This document shows, piece after piece, positions 1-39,877 of a stretch of DNA of 53,315 nt. The DNA comes from Zoogloea sp. GTDB taxonomy: Bacteria > Pseudomonadota > Gammaproteobacteria > Burkholderiales > Rhodocyclaceae. Both the position numbers and the translations under genes were made by a program. The notes beneath the pieces were generated by a model that ran no database searches, was not told where the DNA came from, and saw only the letters and a list, made by a program, of their open reading frames with translations. Every line of letters starts with the position of its first letter. Position 1 is the first letter of the stretch. The stretch lies in contig NZ_JAFLDT010000020.1 of assembly GCF_017302315.1 (NCBI RefSeq), positions 1 through 53,315 of the forward strand, written 5' to 3'.

Positions 1-472
1 AGAAACTCATAAGCAATAAATAAATTAAAAAATCATCCGAAAACAGAATAAGTTAAAAATGGTATTCCGATAATAAAAAATTCAAAATAGAAATGGTAAT
101 AAAAAAAGAGATAAATAAAATCTCCTTCAAAATTATAAAAATAAGCATAAGCCCTTCAAAAACAGAAGGGATACCGAATTCAAAAGCCTGATTAAGTGTT
201 TGATTAGCTATAAAAATAGAAGTAATAGCCAAGACTGAAACAACTACGCCCAACATAGATAGTGACAAATAACATAAAAAATGCTAAAAATTTGCTAAAC
301 GAAGGCGAATAGGAGTCAATAAAGAAAAATAGTATGAATAGTAAAAATAATAGTATGAGCAGTATGTACAACAATAAAGACAGTTAAAATAGCCCATCAA
401 TAATGTACAAATTCTCTCCATCCCCATTGAAGCATGCAAACATCTCAATCGAGCCTATCCAGTAATAAACAT
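1..472 (-). CDS. Possible hydrophobic membrane protein, ciliate code, partial
   Basis: With TAA and TAG read as glutamine, the minus strand stays open from an ATG at 470-472 to the window edge, about 157 residues with no stop. The translation is rich in Leu, Ile, Phe and Tyr, contains a Cys/Tyr-rich stretch, and has several segments that could cross a membrane. I do not recognise the family. AT-rich DNA read with only one stop codon often gives long hydrophobic open frames, so openness is weak evidence, and introns could also be present. Positions 473-1016 show no gene I can support. A real gene here would run off the left edge of the window. Confidence 0.22.
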
Positions 473-1016
473 AAGGTAAAAATATGATAAATCTGATGAA
501 TCTGCGAAATAGTAACAAATTATCATCGAATAGCAAAAATGGGCAGAATAAAATATAAAGGATAATATCGACATGTTTGTTCAGGCTGAATCAGCAAAAT
601 TTCGATTATACAAAATGTAAATATTAAATAAATTAACTGTAAATAATAATAAACAATAGTTACCATATATCGTACTCGCATATAAATAAAATTAAACTAA
701 TATACAGCTAATTTAACCGTCCTTAAATTAAACTCACTTACCTACACACAGCTGATGATATTAGCAAAAGCAGAGAAAGCTATAAAGCTCATGTATCAAA
801 ATAAGTGGATGGGATGGCTGCTAAAAATGGGAGGCATACTTACGACCCTCGGAGTAGTTTCGTGGACAATATGAACATCAATTCGGATGGGAAATAAAAG
901 GAATAATAATTTACATGTGCGAATGCTATTAGTCGATTTATACTATATTCTCCAGCATCATTACCCGAAAACTATTAAGAGAACCCCAGATATGCCAGGT
1001 ACTCAAATTAGATACG

Positions 1017-1532
1017 TTGGCTGTTACTTCGCATATGCTGACCAATGGATTGAAATCACATGATTCCCAGCATGTTACATTTAATTACTCTGTCGATGGC
1101 ACCATCATGAAAAAATCCAAGCATCTAAGAAACTGGGAAAAAAGATACGTGCGAATTGACAACTTTAACTTAAAATCATATAGAGTCACCTACTTGCCCA
1201 TATCACAGAGCCAAACCCTCAAAAAACGATCTGGCAAATAGTCGCCAACATCATCCCCCAATCCTTTGTATGATTCCTACCCTGACTACAGATAATCGTA
1301 TAGAGAGGGAATTGAAAAGATATCAAATTAATGTACATTTTAATTGAATTCCATTAAATAATTATGGACAAGATTTGAGATCATTGACAGGAAGTATCTG
1401 GTTTTGAAAATGCATAAAAAGAACAAAATATAAAAAATAGAATTTGGGATTCCTGTTATCAATTATTCGAATGTGCACTCAAGAGATAATTGGTTGTTTG
1501 GATTTGTATCTTTATTGAAAGGAGAAATTTGA
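1017..1532 (+). CDS. Possible PH-domain-like protein, ciliate code, 5' end unresolved
   Basis: In the standard code this frame stops at 1239, but with TAG/TAA as glutamine it continues to a TGA at 1530-1532. The first part reads G-T-I-M-K-K-S-K-H-L-R-N-W-E-K-R-Y-V, the pattern of strands 1 and 2 of a pleckstrin homology domain (G-x-L-x-K, then N-W-x-x-R). A Ser/Pro-rich insert follows, then further strand-like segments ending in a short stretch with a Trp, loosely like the C-terminal PH helix. The frame is also open upstream, with an ATG at 915, so the true start and any intron are unknown. It converges on the dynein gene, 138 bases away. The PH call rests on one motif. Confidence 0.35.
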
Positions 1533-1670
1533 GTATTTATTTAACAAATAATAATCAATTTTTATATATTATATCTTCAGTATATTTATCCTTTATCAGA
1601 TAGTTCTATTCGTAAGTTAATTTATAATATGCGATATATAAAAGAATTAATATTAATAAGTTAAAACATT

Positions 1671-4600: not shown

Positions 4601-4880
4601 AGTCATAAAATGAATCTACAGTTTCACCAATATTTTCAAGTAATACAGGCATACCATTTTAAATAGCTCCATAAAGTTTATTTTCTATTTACTTTTAACT
4701 ACTGTTTTGTTTAAGAATAATAAGTTCTCTTTATGGTTCTCTCTATTTGTTCTTAATCCAATTGTTAGCTTGGATTTGAGGATCAATCATTAAAGGCCAT
4801 CTTTTTGAATTATTGAGAATAATTGCATTGTCAATTGAAAAATCGTCATTAGGTAGTTGTTGTTAATTGGTCCATCTGCC
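1671..4880 (-). CDS. Axonemal dynein heavy chain, C-terminal part, ciliate nuclear code
   Basis: The gene encodes a motor ATPase of cilia. About 1070 codons read in one frame without an intron, from the joint near 4880 to a TGA at 1671-1673. I count about 44 in-frame TAA and about 12 in-frame TAG, falling where dyneins carry polar residues. Landmarks in order: the AAA5-region motif L-P-N-D-D-F-S-I followed by R-W-P-L-M-I-D-P; the AAA6 signature S-P-G-A-D-P, then S-L-G-Q-G-Q-G and [10 protein letters not shown] (complement of about 3300-3460); [18 protein letters not shown]; and near the end L-D-G-A-R-W-D and L-S-T-T-G-H-S-T-N. The last is typical of axonemal rather than cytoplasmic dyneins. 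The N-terminal three quarters (tail, AAA1-4, stalk) are missing because the sequence switches to bacterial DNA. It looks like an inner-arm type, but I cannot assign the isoform. Confidence 0.93.
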
Positions 4881-4883
4881 TAT

Positions 4884-4982
4884 CTCGAGAGGATCTCCCG
4901 CCTGATCGTCGAGCGCTGTGTCAGCGTGAACGTGGCGGCAACGGGCGGAAATACCAGCTTGCTGCAACTTGGGGAGGCTTGA
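4884..4982 (+). CDS. putA: Proline utilization protein A, C-terminal tail only
   Basis: The frame running into the stop at 4980-4982 ends in E-R-C-V-S-V-N-V-A-A-T-G-G-N-T-S-L. This matches the C-terminal end of PutA, the bifunctional proline dehydrogenase / 1-pyrroline-5-carboxylate dehydrogenase, whose family tail is S-V-N-T-x-A-x-G-G-N-A-S-L. Only about 32 codons are bacterial before the sequence turns into the ciliate dynein gene, so the rest is lost at the joint. The identification rests on this short conserved tail. Nothing else is recognisable between this stop and the tamA start. Confidence 0.6.
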   Translation, partial: LERISRLIVERCVSVNVAATGGNTSLLQLGEA

Positions 4983-5087
4983 CCGGCGCATTGATCGCCA
5001 CAATCTCCTTCGTCAGTGGCTTGCGGCCACGGCGCAGCGTGGCGTGAAGGCCTTGAAGAAGGCCGGTCCCGATGGTCACTGTCCGGC

Positions 5088-5096
5088 TGTTAGAAT
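5088..5096 (+). promoter_or_regulatory. Extended -10 box before tamA
   Basis: TGTTAGAAT matches an extended -10 element (TG-n-TAGAAT). Only six bases separate it from the GTG start at 5103, so transcription would begin at or next to the start codon. There is no Shine-Dalgarno sequence and no clear -35 box. Confidence 0.4.
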
Positions 5097-5102
5097 CAAA
5101 CG

Positions 5103-6845
5103 GTGTCGCGCCTTTTCATTTTCCTCCGTCTGCTGTGTGTATGCCTTGCCTTGTCCGGAGGTGCGTCGGCCCATGCGGCAGACGCGGCTGTCGAACTCCA
5201 GGTGCCTGACGCTTTGCGTCCCCTGCTCGAAAAACATCTTGATTTTCTTGAGCTTGCGCCGGATCAGTTGCTCGATGCCGGCGGCCGTATTGCCCTCATG
5301 CGGCGTGCACGCAAGGAGATCCGGGAAATGCTCGCCACCGAAGGCTATTTTTCACCGACCATCGAGCGGAGGGATCTTGAGAATGGGCGTCTTCTCGTTG
5401 TTGTGACACCGGGGGCGCGCACACATATCTCTTCCGTCGATCTGCGCTTTACCGGCGATCTGGCCGGAGTTGAGGGGGATCGGCCGGCGCGCCTGGCCGA
5501 GCTGCGCAGCTCGTGGGGGCTCCAGGCGGGTCAGCCTTTCCGGCAGGCGGATTGGGATGCCGCCAAACAGCGGCTGCTCGATGCCCTCTCCACCCGCGAA
5601 TACGCTGCCGCCAGCATTGTGGAGAGCCAGGCGGTGATCAACCCAGATACGGCCAGTGCTGAGCTCAAGGTCGAAATGGACAGTGGCCCTGTGTTTCGCT
5701 TCGGCCCCATGGAGGTCAGCGGGCTTTCCGATTACGAGGAAAGCCTCGTGGAACGCTATCGCCCGCCCGAGCGTGGGGAGCTCTACAGCCAGGAGCGGCT
5801 TCTGCGTTTCCAGACGGCCCTGCAGAACACCAGTTATTTTGCTTCGGTGGTCGTCGATATTGATCGCAGCACACCCACGCCAGAGGCGGTGCCGGTGCGC
5901 GTTACGGTCATTGAGGCCAAGCCCAGGCGCATCGGTTTTGGTAGCGGCATCAGCAGTAACACCGGCTATCGGGTGGAAACCAGTTATCGGGACGCGCACT
6001 TCATGGGCCAGCCCTGGACCCTGGTGAGCGGTGTTCGGGTCGAGCAGCGTCGCCAACTTGGCTACGCAGACGTGTTCTTGCCGCCATCCCTGTCCGGGCA
6101 CCTCGATAGCTTTGGCGTGCTTGCGGAGCACACCAACATCTCCGGTTTGCAGACCCAGCGCCAGTCGATTGGGGTGGTCCGGACGATTCCACGGGGCAGT
6201 ATGGAAAACCGTCTGGCTCTCAATTTCCAGCATGAAATCCTGACCCCCGAGGGAAGCCTCCGGTCAAGCCGTTCTGCGCTCACTGCCAACTGGTCATGGA
6301 CCTATCGGGCGGTGGACAACATTCTCGATCCCCGGCGTGGGCAGGTGGTGAATTTCCAGCTTGGCGGTGCGTCCCGGGCTTTCCTGTCGGACCGCAATTT
6401 TGTGCGTCTCTACGGGCGCTACCAGCACTTCTTTCCCGTCGCAGAGCGGGATGTACTGATTCTCCGGGCGGAGGGCGGGATGACGTTGGCGACGTCCCGC
6501 GACGGTGTTCCCCAGGACTTTCTGTTTCGTACTGGCGGTGCCCAGTCCGTGCGTGGCTACGCCTACCAGAGCCTCGGTGTGACCGAAGGAAGCGCGACGG
6601 TGGGCGGACGCTATCTGGCAGTGACCAGTGCGGAATACGTCCATTGGTACGAGGGCAACTGGGGCGTTGCCGCATTTGTCGACGCTGGCAACGCGAACGA
6701 CGAGCGGGAACTGTTCAAGATGAATCTCGGTTACGGGTTCGGTCCCCGCTGGCGCAGTCCGGCAGGGCCGATAGCCGTCGATCTTGCCTATGGTCAGAGT
6801 GATCACCGGGTCCGGCTTCAGTTTGCCGTCGCCATCGCCTTCTGA
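5103..6845 (+). CDS. tamA: Translocation and assembly module subunit TamA (BamA/Omp85 family)
   Basis: This is an outer-membrane Omp85-family protein that, with TamB, helps insert barrel proteins or move lipids. It has 580 residues, close to E. coli TamA (577). Residues 1-24 form a signal peptide ending A-H-A-A-D. POTRA-type repeats follow to about residue 270, then a 16-strand type barrel with the lid-loop motif V-R-G-Y-A-Y (codons near 6545-6570) and a C-terminal Phe after alternating aromatic and hydrophobic residues. The GTG start is the only good choice, since an in-frame TAG lies at 5091-5093. The usual partner tamB is not downstream; the next gene is an unrelated DUF255 protein 84 bases on. 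Family membership is clear. TamA rather than another small Omp85 protein is inferred from length and POTRA content. Confidence 0.85.
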   Translation: MSRLFIFLRLLCVCLALSGGASAHAADAAVELQVPDALRPLLEKHLDFLELAPDQLLDAGGRIALMRRARKEIREMLATEGYFSPTIERRDLENGRLLVVVTPGARTHISSVDLRFTGDLAGVEGDRPARLAELRSSWGLQAGQPFRQADWDAAKQRLLDALSTREYAAASIVESQAVINPDTASAELKVEMDSGPVFRFGPMEVSGLSDYEESLVERYRPPERGELYSQERLLRFQTALQNTSYFASVVVDIDRSTPTPEAVPVRVTVIEAKPRRIGFGSGISSNTGYRVETSYRDAHFMGQPWTLVSGVRVEQRRQLGYADVFLPPSLSGHLDSFGVLAEHTNISGLQTQRQSIGVVRTIPRGSMENRLALNFQHEILTPEGSLRSSRSALTANWSWTYRAVDNILDPRRGQVVNFQLGGASRAFLSDRNFVRLYGRYQHFFPVAERDVLILRAEGGMTLATSRDGVPQDFLFRTGGAQSVRGYAYQSLGVTEGSATVGGRYLAVTSAEYVHWYEGNWGVAAFVDAGNANDERELFKMNLGYGFGPRWRSPAGPIAVDLAYGQSDHRVRLQFAVAIAF

Positions 6846-6929
6846 ATCCGGAGGCGGGGGAGCAAACATGGGTGAAACCCGGATGTAACGAGGCCTGAAC
6901 CCAAGGTCCACTTTTCAACTGGAGCCCTC

Positions 6930-8990
6930 ATGCCGAACCGACTTCAGCACCAAACCTCACCCTATTTGCTGCAGCACGCCGACAACCCCGTGGACTGGTG
7001 GCCGTGGGGCCAGGAAGCGCTTGATGAGGCACGCAGGCGGGACAAGCCGATCCTCTTGTCCATCGGCTATTCTGCCTGTCACTGGTGTCATGTGATGGCC
7101 CACGAGTCCTTTGAGGACGAGGCGGTTGCCGCTCGGATGAATCAGCTCTTCATCAACATCAAGGTGGACCGGGAGGAGCGACCGGATCTTGACCAGATCT
7201 ACCAGTCGGCCCATCAGATGCTGGCCCGGCGCAATGGGGGCTGGCCGCTGACCATCTTCCTGACGCCGGATGGGGTGCCGTTTTTCAGCGGGACCTATTT
7301 TCCAAGAGAGTCCCGCCACCGTCTGCCCGGCTTTCCGGAGGTGCTGACGCGTATCGATGAGGCGTTTCGAACCCAGCGAGCAGCCATTGTCGAGCAGAGC
7401 CACGGGGTGGTGGCGGCGTTGGCGCGCCATGACGGGGGTGTGCGCGCCCACTCTGCCGATTTCTCTCCGGCGCCGCTGGACGCTTTGCGCGATACGCTCT
7501 TCTCCACATTTGACCGGGAAAACGGCGGCTTTGGTAGCGCGCCAAAGTTTCCTCATCCGGTGGAGCTGGAGTTCCTGTTGCGCCACCATGCGGCGAGGGG
7601 AGACGAAGCGGCCCGCGATATGGTGCTCACGACCCTGCGCCACATGGCCGAAGGGGGCATCTTCGACCACCTGGGGGGCGGATTTGCCCGTTACAGCGTT
7701 GATGATCGCTGGAATATTCCGCATTTTGAAAAGATGCTCTATGACAACGGTCCGCTACTGGCCTTGTATGCCGATGCCTGGCAGATGACCGGGGAACCCC
7801 TGTTCGCGAGGGTGGCTGAGCAGACCGCCGAGTGGGTGTTGCGTGAGATGTGCCTGGAAGGGGGCGGTTTTGCTTCCTCGCTCGATGCCGACTCTGAGGG
7901 GGAGGAGGGCCGTTACTACATTTGGGACAGGGCCGAAGTCAGGGCTCTGCTGGATGAAACCCGATTCTCCATTGTGGCCCGCCACTATGGCTTGGCGCGC
8001 CGCCCCAACTTCGAGGGCGAGCACTGGCACCTCCATGTGGCTGAGCCCCTCGAGCGGATTGCCGAAGATCTTGGCATCGGCGAGGTGGAGGCTCGGGCAC
8101 TGCTGGATGAGGCCCGAAAGACACTCCGTGATCGCCGGGCCTTGCGCGTTCCGCCCGCCCGTGACGACAAGCTGCTGGTGAGCTGGAATGCCCTGATGAT
8201 CAAGGGGCTTGCCCGGGGCGCCCGGGTCTTCGGCCGATCCGACTGGCTCGCCGCCGCGTTCGCGGCAGTTGATGCCATTTGCGACACATTGTGGGTCGAT
8301 GGGCGGCTTCTCGCGACGGCACGGGCCGGCAAGGCCCATTTGAATGCCTACCTGGATGACCACGCGCTGCTCATCTCCGCGCTCATCGAGCTCATGCAGA
8401 CCCGTTTTCGGCCTGGAGATCTCGCTTTTGCAGAGGATCTGGCCGACGCCCTGTTGGATGACTTCGAGGACCGGGGGCGGGGCGGTTTCTTCTTCACCCG
8501 TCACGATCATGAGGCGCTGATCCATCGGCCGCGCAGCGCACACGACGGCGCCATGCCTTCCGGAAATGGGGTTGCCGCCCAGGTTCTTGGCCGCCTCGGG
8601 CATCTCACCGGTGAAACGCGTTACCTGGATGCGGCCGAAAGAACCCTTCAGGCCTTCGTGACGGCCCTTCATCAGTCTCCTGCAGGGCATGCCAGCTTGG
8701 CGCTGGCCCTCGCAGAGCGTTTGCAGCCACCTGCCGTGCTGATCCTTCGGGGGCCGGAGGAGAAGGCCATGTGGTGGGCGAAACAGCTCGCCAGCCTGTA
8801 TTTGCCTTCCGTCATCGGGCTGGTCCTGCCCGAGGGCATCCAAGGTTTGCCTCCGGTACTCGACAAACCCGCCAGTGGCGAGGTCAACGCCTGGTTGTGC
8901 TCCGGCGTTGAGTGCTTGCGACCTTATGCCACGTGGACGGCACTTGAAGAGGAGCTCATGAGAATTGGCAAACCTGCGGGGGAAGTTTAG
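6930..8990 (+). CDS. Thioredoxin-domain protein of the DUF255 / YyaL family
   Basis: The 686-residue cytosolic protein begins with the family hallmark N-P-V-D-W-W-P-W and a thioredoxin-like domain carrying the C-H-W-C-H-V-M motif (Cys50 and Cys53). An alpha/alpha-barrel region like N-acylglucosamine 2-epimerases or glycoside hydrolases follows, with [10 protein letters not shown] and the segment H-F-E-K-M-L-Y-D-N. Homologues are bacterial YyaL and animal SPATA20; their biochemical role is not established, so none is assigned here. ATG at 6930 is preceded by GGAG six bases upstream. The length matches the family, and no residue of the Cys motif is missing. Confidence 0.9.
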
Positions 8991-9033
8991 ACTTCCCTGA
9001 TATTTTTTCGCCACACAACCCGAGAGGATCACA

Positions 9034-9348
9034 ATGAAGAAACTCGTTGCTGTTGCTGCCGTCGTCGGCCTGATGGGCTCCACCGCCGCCTTCGCCGACG
9101 CAGGCGCCGATCTGGCCAAAGCCAAGAACTGCCTGGCTTGTCACGCCGTGGACAAGAAGCTTGTCGGCCCGGCATACAAGGATGTCGCCGCCAAGTACAA
9201 GGGCGACAAGACCGCTGAAGCCAAGCTTGCCGAGAAGGTCGTCAAGGGCGGTGTCGGCGCCTGGGGCCAGATCCCGATGCCCCCCAACCCGCAGGTCAGC
9301 GCTGCGGAAGCCAAGACCCTCGTCGCCTGGGTGCTGGCACAGAAGTAA
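9034..9348 (+). CDS. Small periplasmic class I cytochrome c (c8 / c551 type)
   Basis: This 104-residue electron carrier has a signal peptide of about 21 residues (cleavage after A-F-A). The single heme-binding motif C-L-A-C-H covers residues 33-37, and Met82 in I-P-M-P-P is the probable axial ligand. G-P-A-Y-K-D-V-A and the closing L-V-A-W-V-L follow the short c551/c8 pattern. Such proteins shuttle electrons from the bc1 complex to terminal oxidases or nitrite reductase; the partner here cannot be told. GAGAGG lies a few bases before the ATG, and a strong terminator follows, so it is probably its own transcription unit. Confidence 0.92.
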   Translation: MKKLVAVAAVVGLMGSTAAFADAGADLAKAKNCLACHAVDKKLVGPAYKDVAAKYKGDKTAEAKLAEKVVKGGVGAWGQIPMPPNPQVSAAEAKTLVAWVLAQK

Positions 9349-9367
9349 GCAGAGCCCCGTCGCTGAG

Positions 9368-9391
9368 GCCAGCCTGCGGGCTGGCTTTTTT
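9368..9391 (+). terminator. Rho-independent terminator after cytochrome c
   Basis: A perfect 7-bp stem, GCCAGCC (9368-9374) with GGCTGGC (9379-9385), has a TGCG loop and is followed by six T. It lies 20 bases after the cytochrome stop codon. Confidence 0.9.
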
Positions 9392-9611
9392 GCTTTTTTG
9401 GAGGGCGGTGTTGGGGGTCTGTGGCAAGTGCTTTTGTTCTTGTCGCGAAATTGCAACACTTCATCCGGTCGTCGCGTCCAAAAAACAACGCTGTCCTTGC
9501 CTCACCCTTTGCCTCGCACCCACAATGCAGGCCAACTTCTCGTTAGAGAGGTGAAATTGGTCGGCCCCGTGAAAGCGGTGCGTGCCAGTCTTCAATCAAG
9601 AGGAGAAACAT

Positions 9612-10775
9612 ATGCAAAAGAAACTGATCGCTCTGGCCGTCGCCGGCCTGGCTTCCACCGGTGCCTTCGCTCAAGCCAACGTGACCGTTTACGGTGTGGC
9701 TGACGCTTCCTTCGACGTCGTCAAGATCTCTGGCGATGCCAACAACGAACTCGGCAACACCACCCGTGTTTCCACCAACTCTTCTTTGCTTGGTTTCAAG
9801 GGTGCTGAAGCCCTGGGCAACGGCCTGACCGCCGTGTTCCAGTTTGAAACCGCTGTTGGTTTCGACAACGCCGGTGCCCTGGGCGCCAACCGTGACAGCT
9901 ACGTCGGTCTGGCCGGCGGCTTCGGTACCGTGGTTCTGGGTAACCTGACCGGCCCGACCCGCGCTCTGGGCGGTGCTGTTGATGTCAACGCTGGCGCCAC
10001 CGGCATTGGCGCCAACGCTGCCCTGCTGGGCAAGCTGGGCAACAACCTGATCGGCACCACCGACGCCAACGGTTCCTATGGCGGCGGCTCCACCTGCGGT
10101 CGTTCCTCCACCTGCACCTCGATCTTCGACACCCGCTGGAAGAACGCCATTGCCTACGTGTCCCCGAGCTTCGCTGGCCTGAACGCCACCGTCGCTTACG
10201 TGGCCAACGAGAACAAGGCTCTGAACGGCCTGGCCGCTGCCAACACCACCGGCTACGACGTCGGCCTGAAGTACGCCAACGGCCCGGCCATGGCTGCTGT
10301 GACCTACAACGCCGTGTCCGTCGGCAACGCTGCTGACCTGAAGGTTAGCGACCTGCGCGTTGGTGGTAGCTTCAACATGGGCGCCGCTTCCCTGCGCGCC
10401 ATCTTCGATCTGGCCCGTGCTGACAACTTCGGCGGCAACAAGGTTACCCAAGCCGTCTATGGTCTGGGCGCCACTTTCAACGTGACCCCGGCTTCCAAGC
10501 TGCTGGGTCAGGTGTATGTTGCTCGTGACCTGAAGGTCAACGGCTCCAGCGCCAACGACACCGGTGCCAAGCTGTTCGAACTGGGCGTCGAGCACAGCCT
10601 GTCCAAGCGCACCATGCTGAAGGCCACCTACGCCATGATCAACAACGACAAGGGCGCTGCCTACGACTTCGGCATCAACGCCGCTGGCATCAACACCGGC
10701 ACCCTGCCGGGCGGTGCCAACGCTGTTGGTGGCACCGTTCAGGGTCTGTCCCTGGGCCTGCGTCACACCTTCTAA
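9612..10775 (+). CDS. Gram-negative general porin (betaproteobacterial type)
   Basis: This outer-membrane trimeric porin has 387 residues. The start at 9612 is chosen over 9582 because AGAGGAG sits seven bases upstream and the signal peptide then begins M-Q-K-K-L-I-A-L and ends A-F-A-Q-A. The mature start N-V-T-V-Y-G-V-A-D is the usual first strand of this family. The C terminus L-G-L-R-H-T-F ends in Phe, as needed for BAM recognition. Codon choice is very uniform (CTG, GGC, AAC, ACC), unlike its neighbours, which suggests high expression. A long untranslated leader (9392-9611) and a terminator isolate it as a single-gene unit. Substrate selectivity cannot be read from the sequence. Confidence 0.93.
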   Translation: MQKKLIALAVAGLASTGAFAQANVTVYGVADASFDVVKISGDANNELGNTTRVSTNSSLLGFKGAEALGNGLTAVFQFETAVGFDNAGALGANRDSYVGLAGGFGTVVLGNLTGPTRALGGAVDVNAGATGIGANAALLGKLGNNLIGTTDANGSYGGGSTCGRSSTCTSIFDTRWKNAIAYVSPSFAGLNATVAYVANENKALNGLAAANTTGYDVGLKYANGPAMAAVTYNAVSVGNAADLKVSDLRVGGSFNMGAASLRAIFDLARADNFGGNKVTQAVYGLGATFNVTPASKLLGQVYVARDLKVNGSSANDTGAKLFELGVEHSLSKRTMLKATYAMINNDKGAAYDFGINAAGINTGTLPGGANAVGGTVQGLSLGLRHTF

Positions 10776-10803
10776 TCCAGACTTCGTCTGAATTAGAAAT
10801 TGA

Positions 10804-10828
10804 CGGGCACCTTCGGGTGCCCGTTTTT
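10804..10828 (+). terminator. Porin terminator
   Basis: CGGGCACC (10804-10811), loop TTCG and GGTGCCCG (10816-10823) form a perfect 8-bp stem with a stable tetraloop and five T after it, 28 bases past the porin stop. Confidence 0.92.
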
Positions 10829-10904
10829 CATGGGCTTCGCCGGGATGTGTTGGTATGGAGATGGTTTTTCCTGTTGCCGGAATGGAGTATGGCAGCGTTC
10901 GAAT

Positions 10905-10948
10905 CTGCAAATGAAATGGCCACCCGAGGGTGGCCATTTCATTTGCAG
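10905..10948. repeat. 21-bp perfect inverted repeat between porin and proB
   Basis: The arms 10905-10925 and 10928-10948 are perfect reverse complements separated by two bases (GA). The element lies 10 bases beyond the 3' end of proB and after the porin terminator. Its inner GC-rich part with AT-rich outer arms could act as a bidirectional terminator or protect 3' ends, but it lacks a clean T run on either strand. Confidence 0.85.
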
Positions 10949-10958
10949 TGTGCTGGGT

Positions 10959-13286
<2,328 letters not shown>

Positions 13287-13305
13287 GAAGGCATGCAGTC
13301 GGCGC

Positions 13306-13569
13306 TTATTCAGCGGCGGCGACGATGCTCACGGTCCGGCGCTTGTTGGCGCCCTTGACGGCGAACTGCACGGTGCCTTCGGTCAGCGCGAACAGGGTGT
13401 GATCCTTGCCGATGCCGACGTTTTCGCCCGGGTGGTATTCGGTGCCGCGCTGGCGAACGATGATGTTGCCGGCGAGGACGAATTGACCGCCGTAGCGCTT
13501 GACGCCAAGGCGTTTGCTTTCTGAGTCGCGACCGTTACGGGAACTGCCGCCAGCCTTTTTGTGTGCCAT
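13306..13569 (-). CDS. rpmA: 50S ribosomal protein L27
   Basis: This 87-residue protein of the large subunit has an N-terminal tail reaching the peptidyl-transferase centre. It begins [15 protein letters not shown], the standard bacterial L27 start without the cleaved extension of Firmicutes, and contains R-Q-R-G-T and G-K-D-H-T-L-F-A. It lies 12 bases downstream of rplU on the minus strand, the near-universal rplU-rpmA pair, and shares its promoter. Confidence 0.98.
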
Positions 13570-13581
13570 GTCGGTTTCTCC

Positions 13582-13893
13582 TTAGGCCGAGATCGCTTCG
13601 ATGCGAAGCTCGGTGTAGTTCTGACGGTGACCCTGATGCTTCTGGTAGTGCTTGCGACGACGCATCTTGAAGATCTTGATCTTGTCGTGACGGCCGTGGG
13701 ATACCACGGTTGCCGTGACGCTGGCGCCGGCCACCACGGGGGTGCCGATCTTGACCGACTCGCCTTCGCCGACCATGAAGACCTGGTCGATGGTGATTTG
13801 CGAGCCCACGTCTGCCGGTATCTGTTCTACTTTGAGTTTTTCGCCGGCAACAACGCGATACTGCTTGCCGCCGGTTTTTATGACCGCGTACAT
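13582..13893 (-). CDS. rplU: 50S ribosomal protein L21
   Basis: The protein has 103 residues. The start at 13891-13893 gives [12 protein letters not shown], the conserved L21 N terminus; the longer open frame to 13959 would run through the promoter and is rejected. The C-terminal basic segment [16 protein letters not shown] is the 23S rRNA-binding part. It is the first gene of the rplU-rpmA unit, with a near-consensus promoter 38 to 66 bases upstream. Confidence 0.98.
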
Positions 13894-13930
13894 GGATGTA
13901 CTCCGATTAAGGGTTTGCAGGAAACGCGGC

Positions 13931-13959
13931 AGTATATAGGCTGCTCGAATTTCTGTCAA
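13931..13959 (-). promoter_or_regulatory. Consensus sigma-70 promoter of rplU-rpmA
   Basis: On the minus strand, TTGACA (complement of 13954-13959), a 17-base spacer and TATACT (complement of 13931-13936) form a near-perfect housekeeping promoter. The predicted leader is about 30 bases. Confidence 0.92.
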
Positions 13960-13976
13960 ACCTCGTTCCGGCCGCC

Positions 13977-14852
13977 TTACTGTCCGATGCGCTCCTGGCG
14001 AATCAGCCAGTGTCCGTCTCGGAGGACGAGGGCGAGGGTCTTGGTTTCCTTGAGGGTCTTTCCCTGGGCGCTGTAGGACTGGGTGAATCGGGCTGTTGCG
14101 ACGCGGCCGTCGGTAGTGATGTTCATGTTGGAGAGCTGGACGGTGATTTCATCAGGTCGGCCAAGTCTTTCCCTGCGCTGCTTAAGCCAGTCGGTATGGG
14201 TGATTCCACCTGTAGGGGTGAAGTCATCTGCGTAGTGCTTGAGGTAGGCATCGACATCCTTTTTTTGCCACGCGGAGGCCCAGTCCGTAATGCGCTGCTG
14301 AATGTCTTCAGTCGGTGTCCGGGGTGGCGTGGCATTGGCCGCGGTCGAAGCTACCAGTGTTGCGGGAGTTGGCGCAGCAGGCGTGGAGGACGGTCCGGGC
14401 TCCGGGGTGGCTGCGGAGGCAGGAGGGCCGCTCGCCGCTTTGGAAGACGTGTCGCTGGCAAGGTGTGCAACCTCGGGTGGCAGGATATTCTCAGTGCCGG
14501 GAACAAAAGTGGCGTTGCTGCCGGGCCTGATCAGCGAGGGGGTTACAGTCTGCTCGGGCTGCGCCTGAGCGCTGCTGGATGATATGGGCGGGGATTCGGG
14601 CGCTGCGGACGATGCCCTTTGCACAGTGGGGGGGGCGATCGCCTCAGCTCTGGCTGACTTGCCCAGGAAGGGTAGTCGGCCTTCGGCGCCCAGCTTCACC
14701 GCGAAGACCAACGAGACAACGAGAAACATTGCAAGGATGCCGCCGAGGAACCAAAGAAGGGTTTGCCCGGGTGTAAGCAATGCAGGTGGCGAGTAGCGGT
14801 TGGAGCCGTGTTTGGTGTTTGACGTCATCGAAGTGGGAGCAATCAGTGCCAT
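13977..14852 (-). CDS. Membrane-anchored protein with C-terminal NTF2-like (Cds6) domain
   Basis: The 291-residue protein has a short cytosolic N terminus, one membrane segment (about residues 30-53), a long low-complexity linker rich in Ala, Ser, Thr and Pro (about 65-185), and a C-terminal domain of about 100 residues. That domain contains [21 protein letters not shown] and ends W-L-I-R-Q-E-R-I-G. It resembles the NTF2/SnoaL-like domain often fused to L,D-transpeptidases or TPR proteins (Cds6 C-terminal family); no transpeptidase domain is present. It is probably periplasmic, with unknown function. A TAGAAT box lies eight bases before the chosen ATG; an internal ATG at residue 9 is an alternative start. 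Confidence 0.6.
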
Positions 14853-14860
14853 TGCGACGG

Positions 14861-14866
14861 ATTCTA
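14861..14866 (-). promoter_or_regulatory. -10 box close to the start of the NTF2-like gene
   Basis: TAGAAT on the minus strand ends eight bases before the ATG at 14852, with no Shine-Dalgarno between them. This fits a very short leader or leaderless mRNA. Confidence 0.35.
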
Positions 14867-14963
14867 GGGCGACTGATGTTTCCTCGCTGCGACTTAAGGC
14901 CGAACTGACGCTTGTTTGCAGATGACGGTGCCGGCGGCAGCCGGAAAGGGGCGGTTTGAGGGG

Positions 14964-15383
14964 TCAGGGCAAGCGCAGAAGAATCCGCATGCCCGTGGTA
15001 GGTTCGTTTCGGTCGAGGTAACCGATCAGGTTGGGCGTGTCAGTCAGCCACTGCCGGGCTTCAGCCAGGGATCGGGCCTCTTTGGGCGGGAGGGCTCGCC
15101 CGGTGAAGACGAGGCGTGACCAGTAGGCCTGGATTTGTGCGGGGTTTTTGCCAGTCAGTTTCAGGTAGAACTCGTCACGGACCTGACCGTTGGGCAGGTC
15201 CACCAGGCTTGCAGGGGTGCCGTCGCTGAAGGTGGAGCTACGACCCAGATACAGCTTTTCGGCCTGGTCGCGGGTCAACTCGATAGGGCCGCTGCGGCTG
15301 CTGGTGACGATGAGTATCTCCGCCCGGATGGGGCTGGAAGCAAGCAGTGCCACTAGGAGCAGGAGGACGCGGAGTGGACGCAT
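14964..15383 (-). CDS. Small periplasmic PBP-like (phosphate-binding-protein-like) protein
   Basis: The 139-residue protein has a signal peptide (residues 1-21, cleavage after I-R-A). The rest, with I-E-L-T-R-D-Q-A-E-K-L-Y-L-G-R and W-S-R-L-V-F-T-G-R-A-L-P-P, is typical of short PstS-like periplasmic proteins that match half of a type II binding-protein fold. It begins 4 bases after the stop of the outer-membrane barrel gene, as third gene of an operon headed by a GGDEF/EAL protein. A sensing role is possible but unproven; it is too short to be a full transport binding protein. Confidence 0.65.
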   Translation of the reverse strand: MRPLRVLLLLVALLASSPIRAEILIVTSSRSGPIELTRDQAEKLYLGRSSTFSDGTPASLVDLPNGQVRDEFYLKLTGKNPAQIQAYWSRLVFTGRALPPKEARSLAEARQWLTDTPNLIGYLDRNEPTTGMRILLRLP

Positions 15384-15387
15384 CGTT

Positions 15388-16599
15388 CTAGAAGACGAAA
15401 TCAGCGGATATGCTGAACACGTGGACCGGGCCGCCAGGATCTACAACATCGCGAAAGTTGTCGTTCACGAATATCCCTAGTCCTCCCGGGCCTGGATGAA
15501 TACGCTCGAGTTGCGTCTTGATGGCGACGTTGCGGGTGACATCCCATCGCGCGCCAATCGCCATGCTATCTTGGGACTTGTTGCGCATCGCGTTGAAAAG
15601 GCTGAGCAGACTGTCAATGGGCGCGATACCACTCTGTTTGGTTGTAACGGGAGCGGTTTGGGTCTGTCTGGCAACCGTCATGTATGGGGTCAGGGAATTG
15701 AAACGGTAGCCCGCGGTGAAATACCAGCCAGCGGCGCTGACCGTGTAGCGGTCCACGGTGCGGCGCGCATACTCGCCAATCATCAGAAGGCGGTCGCTGT
15801 CGTACTGGAAGCCGGCCGAGAGGAAGGTTCCCTTGCTATCGTCTCCAGATAAATCACGTGCGATGGCATCGTTTCCCGAGGCTATGAGGTGATTGTTCAG
15901 CGACGTAAACATCGGGTCACCCCAATGTATGGACAGATTCGAGCGGGCGTAACCCGCCTGTAACGTCAGACTCGATATGCTAAGGGCTGCCTTCACTCCG
16001 CGAACGGCCTGGAGCTTGCCGCCGCCATTGCGGATGTCTAGCGAACTCTGGCCTCCATACACGTGAAGTTCGAGATCGGTGGCGCCGATCGGCGCGCGAT
16101 AGAGGGCGTCAACACCGTTAAGGTCGGCAAACGGATTCAGGCTGTAGACCTCTACCGGTGGGCGTACCCAGGGCGTGGCATAGTTGAGGTTCAGGGAATC
16201 GGAATACATGAAGAAGGGCGTGCGCATGCGTCCAGCCCGAACGACGATCTCCGGCATGGCCTGAAAACGCAGGAAACCCCAGGTGAGTTGCGGTGAATAG
16301 CTATCGGCAACGCCCTTGCGAACAACGGACTGAACCGTCAGATCAAGGGCGTTGCTGAGGATGAGGGATGCCTGTACGCCCAGAACGGAATCCACTGAAG
16401 AGTCGAAATCAGTGCCGGCACCGCTGACTTGTTCCGTGCTGCTTCGAAACATCCGGTTGTCCTTGTCGGTACGAACGGCGCCCACGGTGCCGAAACCGGA
16501 GAGGCTGAACGGCGACGGGACATCGGATGCATGGGCATTGGTCAGCAGCAGGCTCGCAACAAGACCGAGGTGGAGGCGGTGCGCGGCGATGGATCTCAT
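15388..16599 (-). CDS. Outer-membrane beta-barrel protein in GGDEF/EAL operon
   Basis: The 403-residue protein has a signal peptide ending T-N-A-H-A-S. F-S-L-S-G-F-G-T-V-G-A-V then opens a barrel with alternating polar/hydrophobic strands, closing in H-V-F-S-I-S-A-D-F-V-F with terminal Phe. This is porin-like, but no named family is certain. The ATG at 16597-16599 overlaps the TGA of the upstream GGDEF/EAL gene (ATGA), so translation is coupled; the longer open frame to 16746 lies inside that gene and is rejected. Together with the next PBP-like gene it forms an envelope module for the c-di-GMP protein. Confidence 0.7.
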   Translation of the reverse strand: MRSIAAHRLHLGLVASLLLTNAHASDVPSPFSLSGFGTVGAVRTDKDNRMFRSSTEQVSGAGTDFDSSVDSVLGVQASLILSNALDLTVQSVVRKGVADSYSPQLTWGFLRFQAMPEIVVRAGRMRTPFFMYSDSLNLNYATPWVRPPVEVYSLNPFADLNGVDALYRAPIGATDLELHVYGGQSSLDIRNGGGKLQAVRGVKAALSISSLTLQAGYARSNLSIHWGDPMFTSLNNHLIASGNDAIARDLSGDDSKGTFLSAGFQYDSDRLLMIGEYARRTVDRYTVSAAGWYFTAGYRFNSLTPYMTVARQTQTAPVTTKQSGIAPIDSLLSLFNAMRNKSQDSMAIGARWDVTRNVAIKTQLERIHPGPGGLGIFVNDNFRDVVDPGGPVHVFSISADFVF

Positions 16600-19046
16600 G
16601 CGTGACTCCGTTGAACCTTGCTGGCGCGGGTGGTGAGCCACGCTTCTACCTTGTTTGCGGGTATGGCGGGGGAAAAGAGGTAGCCCTGCCCGAAATTGCA
16701 ATTGAGTTCCTTCAGTAGATCCGCCTGGGCGCTGGTTTCGATGCACTCGGCGACAACACTCATGCCCAGTTCATGGGCAAGGTGGATGCTTGCTCCGACA
16801 ATGGCACGCAGACGGGTGTCGCGCACGATTTCACGGATGAACGACCCATCGAGCTTGATGGTGTCGCAGGGAATGGAGTGCAGGTAGCTCAAGGAGGAGT
16901 AGCCCGTACCGAAGTCATCGATGAGGATCTTGAGGCCCTTGGCGCGGAGCTTGCCCAACTGGCTGGTGGCCAGTTCCTTTCGGGTGACCAGGGTGCCTTC
17001 GGTAATCTCCAGCTTCAGGGCGCCAGGAGGCAGGTCGTGTCGTTCAATGCAGGCCACGATCTGATCGGCAAGATCCAGCTGGGTCAGTTGCCGCGCCGAC
17101 AGGTTGACGCTGATGCTGATCTCGTCGTTGGCGAGACCATGGTCGCGCCATGCCTTGAGGCACCGGCAGCTCTGGTCGAGCATCTGCATCCCCAGGTCAT
17201 GAACCAGGCCAAGGGATTCGGCGAGGGGGATGAATACGTCGGGGCCGATCTGGCGGGTGTTTGCCTGGGGCCAGCGGACCAGGGCTTCGAAGCCGATGGT
17301 CAGACCCGTACTCAAATCCACGATCGGCTGGAAATGGGCGACCAATTGCTCTTCACGCAGGGCGGCGCGGAGCAGGGACTCGAGCTGCAGGTCACGCATC
17401 ACCTGCTGGTGCATGGCGGACTGGAATACGGTGATGGTGCTTTCGGTGCTGCTGCGGGAACGATGCATGGCGTTGTCGGCATCACGCATCAGGTCTTCGG
17501 CATTGTGGAAGCCGCCACTTCCCAGGGCGACACCAATGCGTGTCTTGGGATAAAGGGCATGGCCGTTGAGTTCGGCGTTCTCGGCCAGGTGGGTTTGCAG
17601 CCTTTCGGAGAACCGGATGGCCTCTCCCGCCTCGGCGATGTCGTTGAGAAGCACTGCGAACTGGTCGCCACCGATGCGCCCGACAACGTCGCCGGGACGG
17701 GCCAGGGTGCGGATGCGGGATGCCACAAGGCGCAGCAGATCATCGCCGGCCGAGTAGCCGAGGCTGTCGTTAACCACATGGAAGCGTTCGATATTGACGT
17801 GAAGAACGGCAAACAGGCTGCCTTCGACGCGGTCGGCGTGGCGCAGGGTGTTCTGCAGATGCTCGACAAACAAGGCCCGATTGGCGAGGCCCGTGAGGCC
17901 ATCATGGAGTGCGTCGTGGATGAGTTGATCTTCGGCGCGCTTGCGCAGGTGGATGTCGCTGATGGAGCCTGCCATCCGGACGGCCCGGCCGCTGACCGGA
18001 TCGAAGACGGCAATGCCGCAGGTCAGAATCCAGCGGTAGGAGCCGTCCGAGTGAAGGATGCGATGCTCGACCATCAATTGGGCCGATTCGCGTTTGAGGT
18101 GGGCGAGCAGACGCAGGCGGAACGCTTCCCGGTCCTCCGGGTGAAGGTGCTCGATGAGCGTTTCCCTGGTGACGAGCGACGAATCCGCGGGCAAGCCCAG
18201 GATCTCCATGAAGCGCGGCGCAAAGTAGGTTCGGTCGCTGACAATGTCCCAGTCCCAGAGGCCGTCGTTGGCCGCGCGGGTGGCGAGGGCATAGCGTTCC
18301 TCGCTGATGGTGAGCTGGCGGGCGGTTGTTTCGAGTTCATGGATCCGTGACTGAAGCGCCTCGGCCATGCGGTTGAAATGCTGGCAAAGCTGGGCCAGTT
18401 CATCCTTGCCCTGTTCGGGTAGCCGGTGGGATAGCTGCCCGGCGGCAATGGCCTGGCTGCCCCGCAACAGGCGCCCCAGGTTGCGCGTCATCAGATAGCC
18501 GACCGCGCCCAGCAGGAGCAGCGTCAAGAGCACTTCCGCACTGGCGATGGCAATGCCCTGGTTGAGGATGCGCTGTTTGGCCAGGCTGAGGGCCGATACG
18601 GAGACGCCGAACTGCACATAGCCCACCTGATTGCGTTCGAGGAGGACAGGGCGTCGGATGTGGATGAGATTGTGCTGCGTCCCCGAACTGAAATTGAGTG
18701 CCGAGGCATCGTCCGGCTGGGGGAGGGTGAGCATTTCCGGTAACCCGGCGCGAACCCGGGTCTGGCCGGTGCTGTCCACGATACGGACGTAGATCAGCCC
18801 TTCATTGGTTTCGTTCAGGAGTTCGCCGAGGGCGTCCTGAAGTTCGTTGTAGCGTCCCTGGGGTACGAATGTGGCCGTTACCACGTTCAGAATGCCGGCA
18901 TTCTGTGCGATCAGCGTGTTCAGACTTGCGGTGGTGGCCTCGTTCATGAGCCGGCCACTATTGGTCAGCAGAAGCGTCAGCATTGCAACCTGGACCACGG
19001 TGCTGGCCAGCAAGAGGCGAACGCGGATCGAAAGGTTGCTCAACAT
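16596..19046 (-). CDS. Membrane HAMP-PAS-GGDEF-EAL protein, GGDEF degenerate
   Basis: The 816-residue c-di-GMP signalling protein is built of TM1 (about 8-28), a periplasmic sensor (about 30-160), TM2 (about 166-187), HAMP (about 188-240), PAS (about 250-370), GGDEF (about 375-540) and EAL (about 555-805). The GGDEF motif is G-G-D-Q-F (459-463), and the metal-binding Asp of the usual D-x-D-x-F has become Asn (N-I-E-R-F), so cyclase activity is doubtful. The EAL domain keeps E-A-L (587-589), [10 protein letters not shown] and the late A-E-C-I-E-T, as in active phosphodiesterases. It is followed by genes for an outer-membrane barrel and a PBP-like protein. Net activity is probably c-di-GMP hydrolysis. 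Confidence 0.9.
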   Translation of the reverse strand: MLSNLSIRVRLLLASTVVQVAMLTLLLTNSGRLMNEATTASLNTLIAQNAGILNVVTATFVPQGRYNELQDALGELLNETNEGLIYVRIVDSTGQTRVRAGLPEMLTLPQPDDASALNFSSGTQHNLIHIRRPVLLERNQVGYVQFGVSVSALSLAKQRILNQGIAIASAEVLLTLLLLGAVGYLMTRNLGRLLRGSQAIAAGQLSHRLPEQGKDELAQLCQHFNRMAEALQSRIHELETTARQLTISEERYALATRAANDGLWDWDIVSDRTYFAPRFMEILGLPADSSLVTRETLIEHLHPEDREAFRLRLLAHLKRESAQLMVEHRILHSDGSYRWILTCGIAVFDPVSGRAVRMAGSISDIHLRKRAEDQLIHDALHDGLTGLANRALFVEHLQNTLRHADRVEGSLFAVLHVNIERFHVVNDSLGYSAGDDLLRLVASRIRTLARPGDVVGRIGGDQFAVLLNDIAEAGEAIRFSERLQTHLAENAELNGHALYPKTRIGVALGSGGFHNAEDLMRDADNAMHRSRSSTESTITVFQSAMHQQVMRDLQLESLLRAALREEQLVAHFQPIVDLSTGLTIGFEALVRWPQANTRQIGPDVFIPLAESLGLVHDLGMQMLDQSCRCLKAWRDHGLANDEISISVNLSARQLTQLDLADQIVACIERHDLPPGALKLEITEGTLVTRKELATSQLGKLRAKGLKILIDDFGTGYSSLSYLHSIPCDTIKLDGSFIREIVRDTRLRAIVGASIHLAHELGMSVVAECIETSAQADLLKELNCNFGQGYLFSPAIPANKVEAWLTTRASKVQRSHA

Positions 19047-19190
19047 GCAATACGAAGGCCTGGAGAGGTGGTCGGGTTAGGGCCGCGTTCGTCCTGAAGT
19101 CCAGGCGGAGAAGGGCTTTCACTTGTCTGCCCCTTGTAATCGGCAGAAAGGAGACAAGCTTAAGCCCGACGCGCCCTGGCCCGGTTGCAG

Positions 19191-20912
19191 TTACTTCTTC
19201 CAGGTGTCGCGCAGCGTGACCGTGCGATTGAACACCGGTGCGCCATCCCTGGAGTCGATCCGGTCGGCCACGAAGTAGCCATGACGTTCGAACTGGAAGC
19301 GTGCTTCAGGTCGGGCGGCTCGCAGGGCGGGCTCCAGTTGTGCGGTGATGATCTTCAGACTGTCACGGTTGATGTCCTCCAGGAAATCCCGCTCAACCCC
19401 GTCGGCATCGCCCTCGCGTCTGGCGCCGGGGTAGGCGCAGGCGAAGAGGCGGTCATAGAGGCGAACCTCGGCAGTATAGGCGTGGGCCACCGCGACCCAG
19501 TGCAGGTTGCCCTTGACCTTGTAGTTGTCCGCACCAGGGGTACCGGATTTGGAGTCGGGCATGTATTCGCACAGTACCGCGGTGATGTTGCCGTTTTCAT
19601 CCTTCTGGCAGCCGGTGCATTTGACCACGTAGCCATAGCGCAGCCTCGCCATGTTGCCGGGGTAGAGGCGATGGTAGCCCTTGACGGGGGTTTCCATGAA
19701 ATCTTCGCGCTCGATCCACAGCTCCCGCCCGAAGGGCATCTCGCGCTTGCCCAGTTCTGGGAAGAGCGGGTGGTTGGGGGCGTGGCAGCGTTCGGTGCGG
19801 CCCTCGGGGTAATTGGTGATGATCAGTTTGAGCGGATCAAGCACGGCAACGCGACGTTCTGCGGCTTCGTTGAGATGCTCGCGCATGCAGTCCTCAAGGA
19901 CGCTCATGTCAATCCATGAATCACCTTTGGATACGCCGATGCGATCGGCGAAGCGGCGAAAGCCTTCCGGCGTGAAGCCGCGGCGGCGGGCGCCGACGAG
20001 GGTGGGAAGGCGGGGGTCGTCCCAGCCGGCCACGTGTTTTTCGTCCACCAGCTGGATCAGTTTGCGCTTGGACAGCACCACGTAAGTCAGGTTGAGGCGG
20101 GCAAACTCGATCTGGCGCGGAACCGGGCGGGGGAAAAATCCGCCATCGGCCAGGCTGTCCAGCAGCCAGTCGTAGAAGGGGCGTTGATCCTCGAACTCCA
20201 GGGTGCAGATGGAATGGGTTACATCCTCGAGGGCATCCTCGATGGGATGTGCAAAGGTATACATCGGATACACGCACCACCGGTCCCCGGTCCGGTGATG
20301 TGTGGCATGGCGGATGCGGTAGATGGCCGGGTCACGCAGGTTGATGTTGGGCGAAGCCATGTCGATCTTCGCGCGCAGGATGTGGGTGCCGTCCGGGAAT
20401 TCGCCCGACTTCATGCGCTGGAAGAGTTCGAGGTTCTCGGTAACGCTGCGGTTGCGGTAGGGGCTGTCGGTGCCGGGCGTCGACAGGGTGCCCCGGTAGG
20501 CGCGCATTTCTTCCGCAGAGAGGGAATCCACATAGGCCTTGCCCACCGTGATCAGGTGTTCGGCCATGGCGTACATCTTGTCGAAGTAGTCCGACGCAAA
20601 GTACAGGTGCTCCCCCCAGTCGAAACCGAGCCATTGCACCGCCTCGATGATGGCATCGACGTATTCCTGTTCTTCCTTGGTCGGATTGGTGTCATCGAAG
20701 CGCATGTGGCAGGCGCCACCGTAGGCTTCCGCGAGACCGAAGTTCAGGCAGATGCTCTTGGCGTGACCGTAATGCAGGTAGCCATTGGGTTCCGGCGGGA
20801 AGCGCGTTTCAACCCGCCCGGACCATTTGCCGAGACGGCGATCTTCGTCAATGATGCTGCGGATGAAATTGCTGGGGGTGGCATCGGAGGCCGGGGCGGT
20901 GGGAGCGGTCAT
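19191..20912 (-). CDS. glnS: Glutaminyl-tRNA synthetase
   Basis: The enzyme charges tRNA-Gln. The 573-residue class I synthetase has the HIGH-type motif H-Y-G-H (47-50) after F-P-P-E-P-N-G-Y-L, the KMSKS-type motif V-L-S-K-R-K at about residue 280, and the C-terminal anticodon-binding beta-barrels ending in T-L-R-D-T-W. The first residues (M-T-A-P-T-A-P-A-S-D) are a short extra tail. A TACAAT box (complement of 20971-20976) lies about 60 bases upstream. It stands alone between the GGDEF/EAL operon and the divergent TonB-receptor operon. Confidence 0.98.
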   Translation of the reverse strand: MTAPTAPASDATPSNFIRSIIDEDRRLGKWSGRVETRFPPEPNGYLHYGHAKSICLNFGLAEAYGGACHMRFDDTNPTKEEQEYVDAIIEAVQWLGFDWGEHLYFASDYFDKMYAMAEHLITVGKAYVDSLSAEEMRAYRGTLSTPGTDSPYRNRSVTENLELFQRMKSGEFPDGTHILRAKIDMASPNINLRDPAIYRIRHATHHRTGDRWCVYPMYTFAHPIEDALEDVTHSICTLEFEDQRPFYDWLLDSLADGGFFPRPVPRQIEFARLNLTYVVLSKRKLIQLVDEKHVAGWDDPRLPTLVGARRRGFTPEGFRRFADRIGVSKGDSWIDMSVLEDCMREHLNEAAERRVAVLDPLKLIITNYPEGRTERCHAPNHPLFPELGKREMPFGRELWIEREDFMETPVKGYHRLYPGNMARLRYGYVVKCTGCQKDENGNITAVLCEYMPDSKSGTPGADNYKVKGNLHWVAVAHAYTAEVRLYDRLFACAYPGARREGDADGVERDFLEDINRDSLKIITAQLEPALRAARPEARFQFERHGYFVADRIDSRDGAPVFNRTVTLRDTWKK

Positions 20913-21201
20913 CGGGAGGCTTACCTTGACGGGCGCGGGCGGGGGTCCGCCGGGTTCGAAAAATCTTTAGATTGTAGCCGATGGCGGGCGGGGCGATGGG
21001 CTCCGGGGCAGGCGCACGTCCGGGTATCTAGCGTGATCGGTGTCGCGCGGATGGGCGCTGAAACGTCTTTCTCGTTGTGCGTGTGCGATCTTTGCCACCG
21101 GAACCCTTGCGTGTAAGGTAAAAGCCCGCCTGATTGTGTTGAAATTTAACAGTCTGGGCGGGTCATGTCGTGTTCCCGCGTGTCATCTATTGAGAGTCCC
21201 C

Positions 21202-23232: not shown

Positions 23233-23243
23233 GGACTTGCCCG

Positions 23244-23795
23244 GTGTTGCGCCACCTCTCCCGGTTCGCATTGTTCCTGGCCCTCGGGCTGGCGGGGCTG
23301 CCCGTGGTGGTGGCCTCCCAGCCCGGCGAGTACCAGATCAAGGCGGCCTACCTGATCAACTTCGCCCGCTACGTGGAATGGCCGGCCAGTCGTTTGCCGC
23401 TGGGGGCGGTGCTGCGCCTGTGCGTGCTCGGCCGTGATCCGTTCGGGGGGGCTTTGCTTGGCCTGGACGGACGGCAGGTGCAGGGGCGCGAGGTGCGCTT
23501 CCGTCCGGTGGATAGTCTTGAGCAGGCCCTGGAGTGTCATCTCGTGTTTGTCTCCGGCTCGGAGGAGCGCCGTTTGGGCTTGATCCTGCGCGGCTTGGCA
23601 GGTCGGGGAGTGCTCTCCGTCAGCGATATCGAGGGCTTCGCCGAGGCGGGCGGAGGCATAGGGATGGTCACTGAAGATGATCGGGTCCGTTTCGACATCA
23701 ATCAGGCGACCCTGGCCAGGGACGGCCTTCGCGCCAGTTCCCAGCTTTTGCGCCTCGGGCGACAGGTGTTCGGCACCGAAAGGGCGTCCCGATGA
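23244..23795 (+). CDS. YfiR family (DUF4154) periplasmic protein
   Basis: The 183-residue protein has a signal peptide (about 1-26) followed by the family hallmark [19 protein letters not shown]. Later come L-V-F-V-S-G-S-E and [18 protein letters not shown], close to the family consensus for the C-terminal half. In Pseudomonas, YfiR binds and represses the diguanylate cyclase YfiN in the periplasm; here the neighbour is a CHASE8 histidine kinase, a likely alternative partner. GTG at 23244 is chosen because GAGG lies about eight bases upstream; GTG at 23220 would overlap the receptor stop. The stop overlaps the kinase ATG. Confidence 0.85.
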
Positions 23796-28749: not shown

Positions 28750-28876
28750 ATCTTGCGACGGCTGGCGCCCGGTTTCCCTGGCGTGCGGCTCGGCAAACCC
28801 ATTGATCGGGCTGGCAGGGTGCACAGCGGCGGGATAGTCCCGGGCTGCTCTGGGACTGCAAGTACCCTCCCCGGGG

Positions 28877-31977: not shown

Positions 31978-31980
31978 GGT

Positions 31981-32814: not shown

Positions 32815-33125
32815 TGGCCGGTCTCCTGGCGGAAGGCCAGCACGGCATGCAGCAGGGCCTGGGAGCCGGCGTCATCGGCGGTATGGCGGAACAGGTACAT
32901 GACCCGCGCGCGGATTCTCTCCTGCTTGCGCGCCCGTGCTTCGGCATCTTCGGGGCGTATCACGAGGAGCGTGGCGACGTCTCTCCGTCGCAGGCCGTCC
33001 AGCTGCGCCTCGGTGAGACTGAGTCCGGCAGGCAGAAGCACGGCGCCCGAGTGGTCGAGGACCGGGGCGGCCAGCACGATGCCCGGCAGCACGTCGGCGA
33101 GGGGGAGTGTCAGGGTGTCATCCAT
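32811..33125 (-). CDS. 104-aa stand-alone module found beside HD-GYP proteins
   Basis: The N-terminal half reads L-P-G-I-V-L-A-A-P-V-L-D-H-S-G-A-V-L-L-P-A-G-L-S-L, then a helix with L-D-G-L-R-R-R-D-V. This is the pattern (pGmvLa..v.d.dG..LLp.G..Lte..ieaLrrrgV) seen as a small domain attached to many HD-GYP proteins, and it also forms the C-terminal tail of the HD-GYP regulator in this operon. The second half is a charged helix. The start at 33125 lies within the end of the upstream gene (16-bp overlap) and the stop overlaps the HDOD start. Function is unknown; a trans-acting partner for the HD-GYP or HDOD protein is possible. Confidence 0.75.
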   Translation of the reverse strand: MDDTLTLPLADVLPGIVLAAPVLDHSGAVLLPAGLSLTEAQLDGLRRRDVATLLVIRPEDAEARARKQERIRARVMYLFRHTADDAGSQALLHAVLAFRQETGQ

Positions 33126-34672: not shown

Positions 34673-34847
34673 CGGATCTCCGGGCGCGAGGCGACGTGCG
34701 GCAGGCGACGGGATCGGGTCTTGGCAACACGCCTGCCCATCACGGTCTGTCGCAGCGGATATCGGCCCGGACGAAGGTGGCTTGAGGAAATAAGTCACGT
34801 CGTCGCCCGATCCCGCGGTGTGGCGGGCAGCCGGAGCCCGGGCAGAG

Positions 34848-34853
34848 TAAAAT
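34848..34853 (+). promoter_or_regulatory. -10 box directly before crcB
   Basis: TAAAAT ends seven bases before the crcB ATG, with no ribosome-binding site between. There is no recognisable fluoride riboswitch in the short upstream gap. Confidence 0.4.
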
Positions 34854-34860
34854 CGCACCC

Positions 34861-35265: not shown

Positions 35266-35313
35266 TCCCTCGTCCTCGTTCCCGATCGATTTCCCGCTTC
35301 CGTTGCAATCCCG

Positions 35314-39863: not shown

Positions 39864-39877
39864 GAGGGTGTGATAAC

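Follow-up and report, generated by a model that had tools for sequence, protein, structure and literature searches.

How does the coding sequence of a ciliate axonemal dynein come to abut the tail of a bacterial putA gene, within a single contig and in the middle of both genes, and does the junction record a gene transfer or an artefact? The contig concerned, C79, is one of the 165 that make up a 4.5-Mb metagenome bin (G000) rated 95.05% complete and 2.96% contaminated, and it was analysed in its entirety, at 53,315 nucleotides, being referred to here as the window. We put the probability at about 97% that it is a chimeric contig of the bin, arising as a library or assembly artefact and not by gene transfer, in which the right 48.4 kb are chromosome of a bacterium of the genus Zoogloea and the left 4.9 kb would come from the nucleus of a probably peritrich ciliate in the same sample. 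The features on which this reading is built are collected in the table. The reference for comparison throughout is the nearest relative among those searched (G006), to which the right part of the window is 95% identical; since both carry one genus label, the bin is, on sequence grounds, Zoogloea or its nearest kin. Contig C4 of this relative is JADJBR010000004.1 (Zoogloea sp. isolate Aved, a name that we take to denote a Danish sewage plant), their putA genes being 100% identical, and we call the relative Aved below.

Table. Coordinates of the features of the window, from left to right.
Feature	Position	Strand	Remarks
AT-rich DNA, left of dynein	1..1670		GC 0.265-0.38 in 400-base bins
Axonemal dynein heavy chain, C-terminal 1,075 residues	1671..4898	-	AAA_9, Dynein_heavy, AAA_lid_11, Dynein_C; N-terminal side cut at joint
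Joint	4898..4899		Dynein frame to 4898, putA from 4899; no common stretch, repeat or target duplication seen
putA tail, last 27 codons and stop	4899..4982	+	Frame in Aved has 1,241 codons
Ordinary chromosome of Zoogloea-type bacterium	4899..53315	+	Five blocks collinear with Aved contig C4, 93-96% identical
tamA-like gene, intact	5103..6845	+	POTRA, Omp85; follows putA in Aved and several other relatives
Right contig end	53300..53315		Inside gltX aligning with gltX of Aved; 16 bases equal C144:1307-1322

The dynein is the more striking of the two partners. Read on the minus strand with TAA and TAG passed through, its frame is unbroken from the joint to a TGA at 1671, the only TGA in the frame and its stop, and contains 44 TAA and 12 TAG codons, 56 together; the four tabulated domains follow one another in order, each above its Pfam cut-off. 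The assignment to a ciliate dynein made in the initial annotation holds. Almost the full length of the frame aligns with axonemal dynein heavy chains in the PDB, the best matches being DNAH7, DNAH3 and DNAH12 chains (1,076.8 bits for the top DNAH7 chain), and its very first residues, GDPLEI, are aligned in the third printed alignment, the two better ones starting at residues 5 and 4. Compared with the known DNAH7, the window retains nearly the whole of the C-terminal motor part but lacks the N-terminal part of ~2,950 residues, which is missing because the joint cuts the frame. That 1,075 codons stay open shows the ciliate part to be accurately sequenced, as a single noisy read would not be, which counts against the artefact reading. 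The DNA to the left of the dynein is putatively foreign in the same way, its origin not being proven, and two plus-strand frames tried there gave no Pfam match. Within it, positions 1-1532 form a second AT-rich region whose plus-strand frames are open under ciliate codes and converge on the dynein.

The genetic code of this frame narrows down the source. TAA and TAG (TAR) were set to each of nine residues and scored on the four Pfam domains, whereupon glutamate came out on top for all four, with a lead over glutamine of 0.2 to 6.3 bits (Dynein_heavy contributing the 0.2) and four-domain sums of 981.8 vs 970.7 bits; with PDB chains, too, it scored above glutamine on all of the ten best (in one case 1076.8 vs 1053). 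When TAA alone was varied, with TAG fixed as glutamate, the sums were 981.8 (Glu), 971.7 (Gln) and 965.1 (Lys), and when TAG alone was varied, with TAA fixed as glutamate, they were nearly equal, at 981.8 (Glu), 980.7 (Gln) and 980.5 (Lys). Counted by eye in the DNAH7 alignment, where a match line is given for 53 of the 56 TAR positions (the other three lie outside the printed alignment), TAR codons stand opposite glutamate 26 times and glutamine three times, TAA facing E 23 times and Q once, TAG facing E three times and Q twice. TAA thus clearly appears to encode glutamate in this frame, and for TAG the same assignment is undecided. Our first assumption, that both codons mean glutamine, was abandoned in favour of TAA as glutamate on the Pfam and PDB-chain scores. 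Together with TGA as stop, TAA as glutamate agrees with the peritrich nuclear code (table 30), and the change of code already claimed for this locus is upheld and refined accordingly. In the passages of PMC10553269 that bear on the matter, UAR as glutamic acid has a single origin, in Peritrichia, with Campanella and Carchesium named for it, and both of these genera are given as peritrichs in the corresponding part of PMC4967479; in view of this published distribution, a peritrich is the likely, though not proven, source. The same passages of PMC10553269 describe an oligohymenophorean code with UAA as lysine and UAG as glutamate, which scores lower on the dynein domains.

The joint itself can be placed to the base. 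The initial annotation was right that it falls mid-gene on both sides, but it had the dynein end near 4880 and putA begin near 4884, and the point at which the two homologies meet lies ~15-18 bases further right than its ~4880. DNA similarity to Aved (95% identical) starts at 4899, and to the left of this the likeness is at chance level, with 12 of the 60 adjoining bases matching at the same offset and six bases as the longest word common to the 300-base left flanks of the two sequences. A repeat search of 4600-5200 returned a single direct pair, of 11 bases, and a single short palindrome, none of which reaches 4842, and no repeat at the joint. Both homologies end at one point within genes, and the mobile element, repeat and target duplication that had been reported as lacking there are indeed not seen. 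The predicted shift in composition is just as evident, with a GC content of 0.27-0.35 in 60-base bins ending by 4880 and of 0.52-0.67 in those starting at 4881 or later, the step being completed within ~60 bases; over the two parts as a whole, GC is 0.316 (1-4898) vs 0.647 (4899-53315). No run of N, the mark of a scaffold gap, occurs at 4898|4899.

To the right of the joint, the window is what one would expect of a Zoogloea chromosome. The plus-strand remnant is a bacterial putA tail, as had been proposed, 24 of its 27 residues being identical to those of Aved, where putA is whole (1,241 codons; domains PRODH, DNA-binding, Pro_dh and Aldedh) and tamA comes next; the tamA neighbour is thus common to both, and the window keeps only the last 27 of the 1,241 residues. 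In pieces of >300 bases, the two chromosomes are collinear over window positions 4899-10829, 10905-14344, 14338-39856 and 39997-44186 (93-96% identity) and, in a fifth block, from 44021 to the contig end (C4:104782-114108 in Aved, 95%). The uninterrupted putA locus is not peculiar to Aved. Among 20 loci examined with the PutA of Aved and the TamA of the window as queries (two of them, L028 and L061, being one record), putA was present in 12, each of which also has tamA; near-full-length putA stands directly before tamA in five (L058, L059, L060, L074 and L135), 1,067 residues of it reach the contig end in L029, and L016, L017, L019 and L020 have the C-terminal part, as much as the length of the locus permits. 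In L018, L023 and L024, there are 1.1-1.4 kb ahead of tamA without putA, so the putA-tamA neighbourhood is not genus-wide; the L022 sequence breaks off early, and neither gene shows up in L062, L063, L064 or L088.

The strongest indirect evidence for a chimera comes from other contig ends of the same assembly. We sampled 99 of the 328 ends of other contigs (2 kb each), dropped five that read as N and screened the remaining 94 by GC content, following up three. Foreign-looking tails that break off abruptly within genes were found at two of the 94 readable ends, a lower bound, as the GC screen is blind to foreign tails of similar GC. In the first, C1 (L184), positions 1-4201 have a GC content of 0.444 vs 0.621 in the following 15.8 kb and carry leuS (leucyl-tRNA synthetase) and the start of serS (seryl-tRNA synthetase), which passes without a gap into the last part of a dapE of proteobacterial, here Zoogloea, type; the first 2 kb have no match in Aved, and similarity sets in at 4202 (95% over 7.8 kb, but only 87% over the first 1.8 kb, a point against). 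This appears, from the sequence, to be a clear second chimeric contig end, with a tail from another organism. The second, C144 (L238), begins at a GC content of 0.466 and is without a match in Aved up to 769, from where to 1300 a stretch on the gltX side is 63-73% identical to it per 100 bases, and from 1301 identity is 96-100% over the next six bins, the final bin reaching 90%; gltX was named by eye and from its position in Aved. We regard C144:1306|1307 as a probable third false joint, leading from a divergent gltX into a Zoogloea-type one, less surely than in the case of C1, a natural mosaic gltX not being excluded. As the 16 bases at the right end of the window recur in C144 and both copies map to one place in Aved, C79 and C144 probably adjoin each other in the chromosome. 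At the left end of C155 (L240), positions 1-1470 are of low GC, contain what by eye is a modification methylase gene and, apart from 37 bases, show no similarity to Aved before 1471; this end may be a natural variable gene or another false joint and was left out of the count. From the tails of C1 and C144, the assembly seems chimera-prone, and the false joints in the bin number two at the least, probably three.

The physical step behind the joint at 4898|4899 would then be an end-to-end joining of unrelated DNA, either while the library was made, through ligation or a template switch, or during assembly, in which case the bacterial contig would have run out inside putA. Within the artefact reading, an assembly error proper, in which the assembler took a false path at a shared word or scaffolded wrongly and no chimeric molecule existed, seems to us the minority option, the less likely one at this joint. 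Such an error would be in keeping with the C144 joint, which sits in gltX at the 16-base word common to the right end of the window; at 4898|4899, however, the flanks have no common word of more than six bases, which leaves the joint unexplained by a false path of this sort, and the gap that scaffolding would have left as a run of N is lacking. A physical library chimera fits the joint better. Peritrichs are common in sludge. The part of PMC8004422 consulted includes Zoogloea among granular sludge bacteria, and one of the titles in its references concerns vorticella in granules. Bin and ciliate presumably came from one sample.

A real insertion is very improbable by comparison. On this account, at least 4.9 kb of peritrich nuclear DNA would recently have entered and interrupted putA in a Zoogloea-type strain, which would sit well with a joint that is clean at base level and with a ciliate part that is accurate. 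The foreign part, however, continues to the contig end without a return, so that putA lies on one side of it alone on the contig, and far side, repeat and target duplication are none of them seen. The bin was searched with the 10.6 kb that lie upstream of the joint in Aved, 40 of 164 first-look candidates being scored, and no counterpart of this region was found among them, 30 of the 31 matches being to a short dispersed repeat (query ~2768-2899) and one covering 123 bases at 69%; a family search of the bin for PutA-type dehydrogenases gave 14 matches, all 14 below the cut-off. The bin thus shows no far side of an insertion and no intact putA, and the missing intact copy cuts both ways, since it also speaks for an insertion. 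The living bacterium presumably has an intact putA. The two further foreign-looking tails of the bin also speak against an insertion, as does the fact that of the 23 genomes of the genus only this bin has a dynein match, the other 22 having none. The dynein D6 domain was found in the bin in the window's own copy alone, and 18 pattern matches to dynein relatives in a collection of bacterial genomes yielded none that was confirmed. AT-rich 22-base runs, sought across the bin, came up on four contigs but nowhere in the ciliate part of the window, so that this approach was dropped as insensitive; loci from three of the four show brief GC dips amid GC-rich surroundings. The converse arrangement, a stretch of bacterial chromosome inserted into a ciliate genome, with the contig itself being ciliate, explains why both kinds of DNA share one contig but is the least credible of all, given five blocks, 48.4 kb in all, that keep the order of Aved at 93-96% identity, no 500-base bin below 50% GC after 4900 and a right end that fits on to C144 of the bin.

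The chimera between ciliate and bacterium in assembly or library that was the simplest reading at the outset is thus supported by the intact putA of Aved and the ordinary chromosome to the right of the joint, and further by the missing upstream counterpart, the 22 genomes without dynein and the two other tails; of the idea that the bacterium was associated with the ciliate, only their presence on one contig is borne out. Chimeric contigs and eukaryotic contamination are a known kind of defect in metagenome-assembled genomes, and the window resembles it in its unrelated DNA fused within genes at a contig end, in its abrupt change of composition and code and in the occurrence of more such tails in one bin. 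Nothing essential differs; the joint is conspicuous here since the partner, a ciliate, uses a variant code. The junction would accordingly not be a real feature of the organism and has its value as a quality warning, coming as it does from a bin whose ratings are 95% for completeness and 3% for contamination; screens of bacterial genomes for eukaryotic genes, dynein for example, would log a false transfer at this place.

The bacterial part also differs from Aved in places, its order being kept. At 10829-10905 of the window, Aved has ~3.2 kb extra, and at 39857-39996 the window has ~140 bases extra, within which 39884-39990 belongs to a short repeat family scattered through the bin, without a match in Rfam and with inverted ends by eye, like a small mobile element. 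At 44021-44186, Aved carries ~17.9 kb extra between two copies of this stretch, in the manner of an element with duplicated ends.
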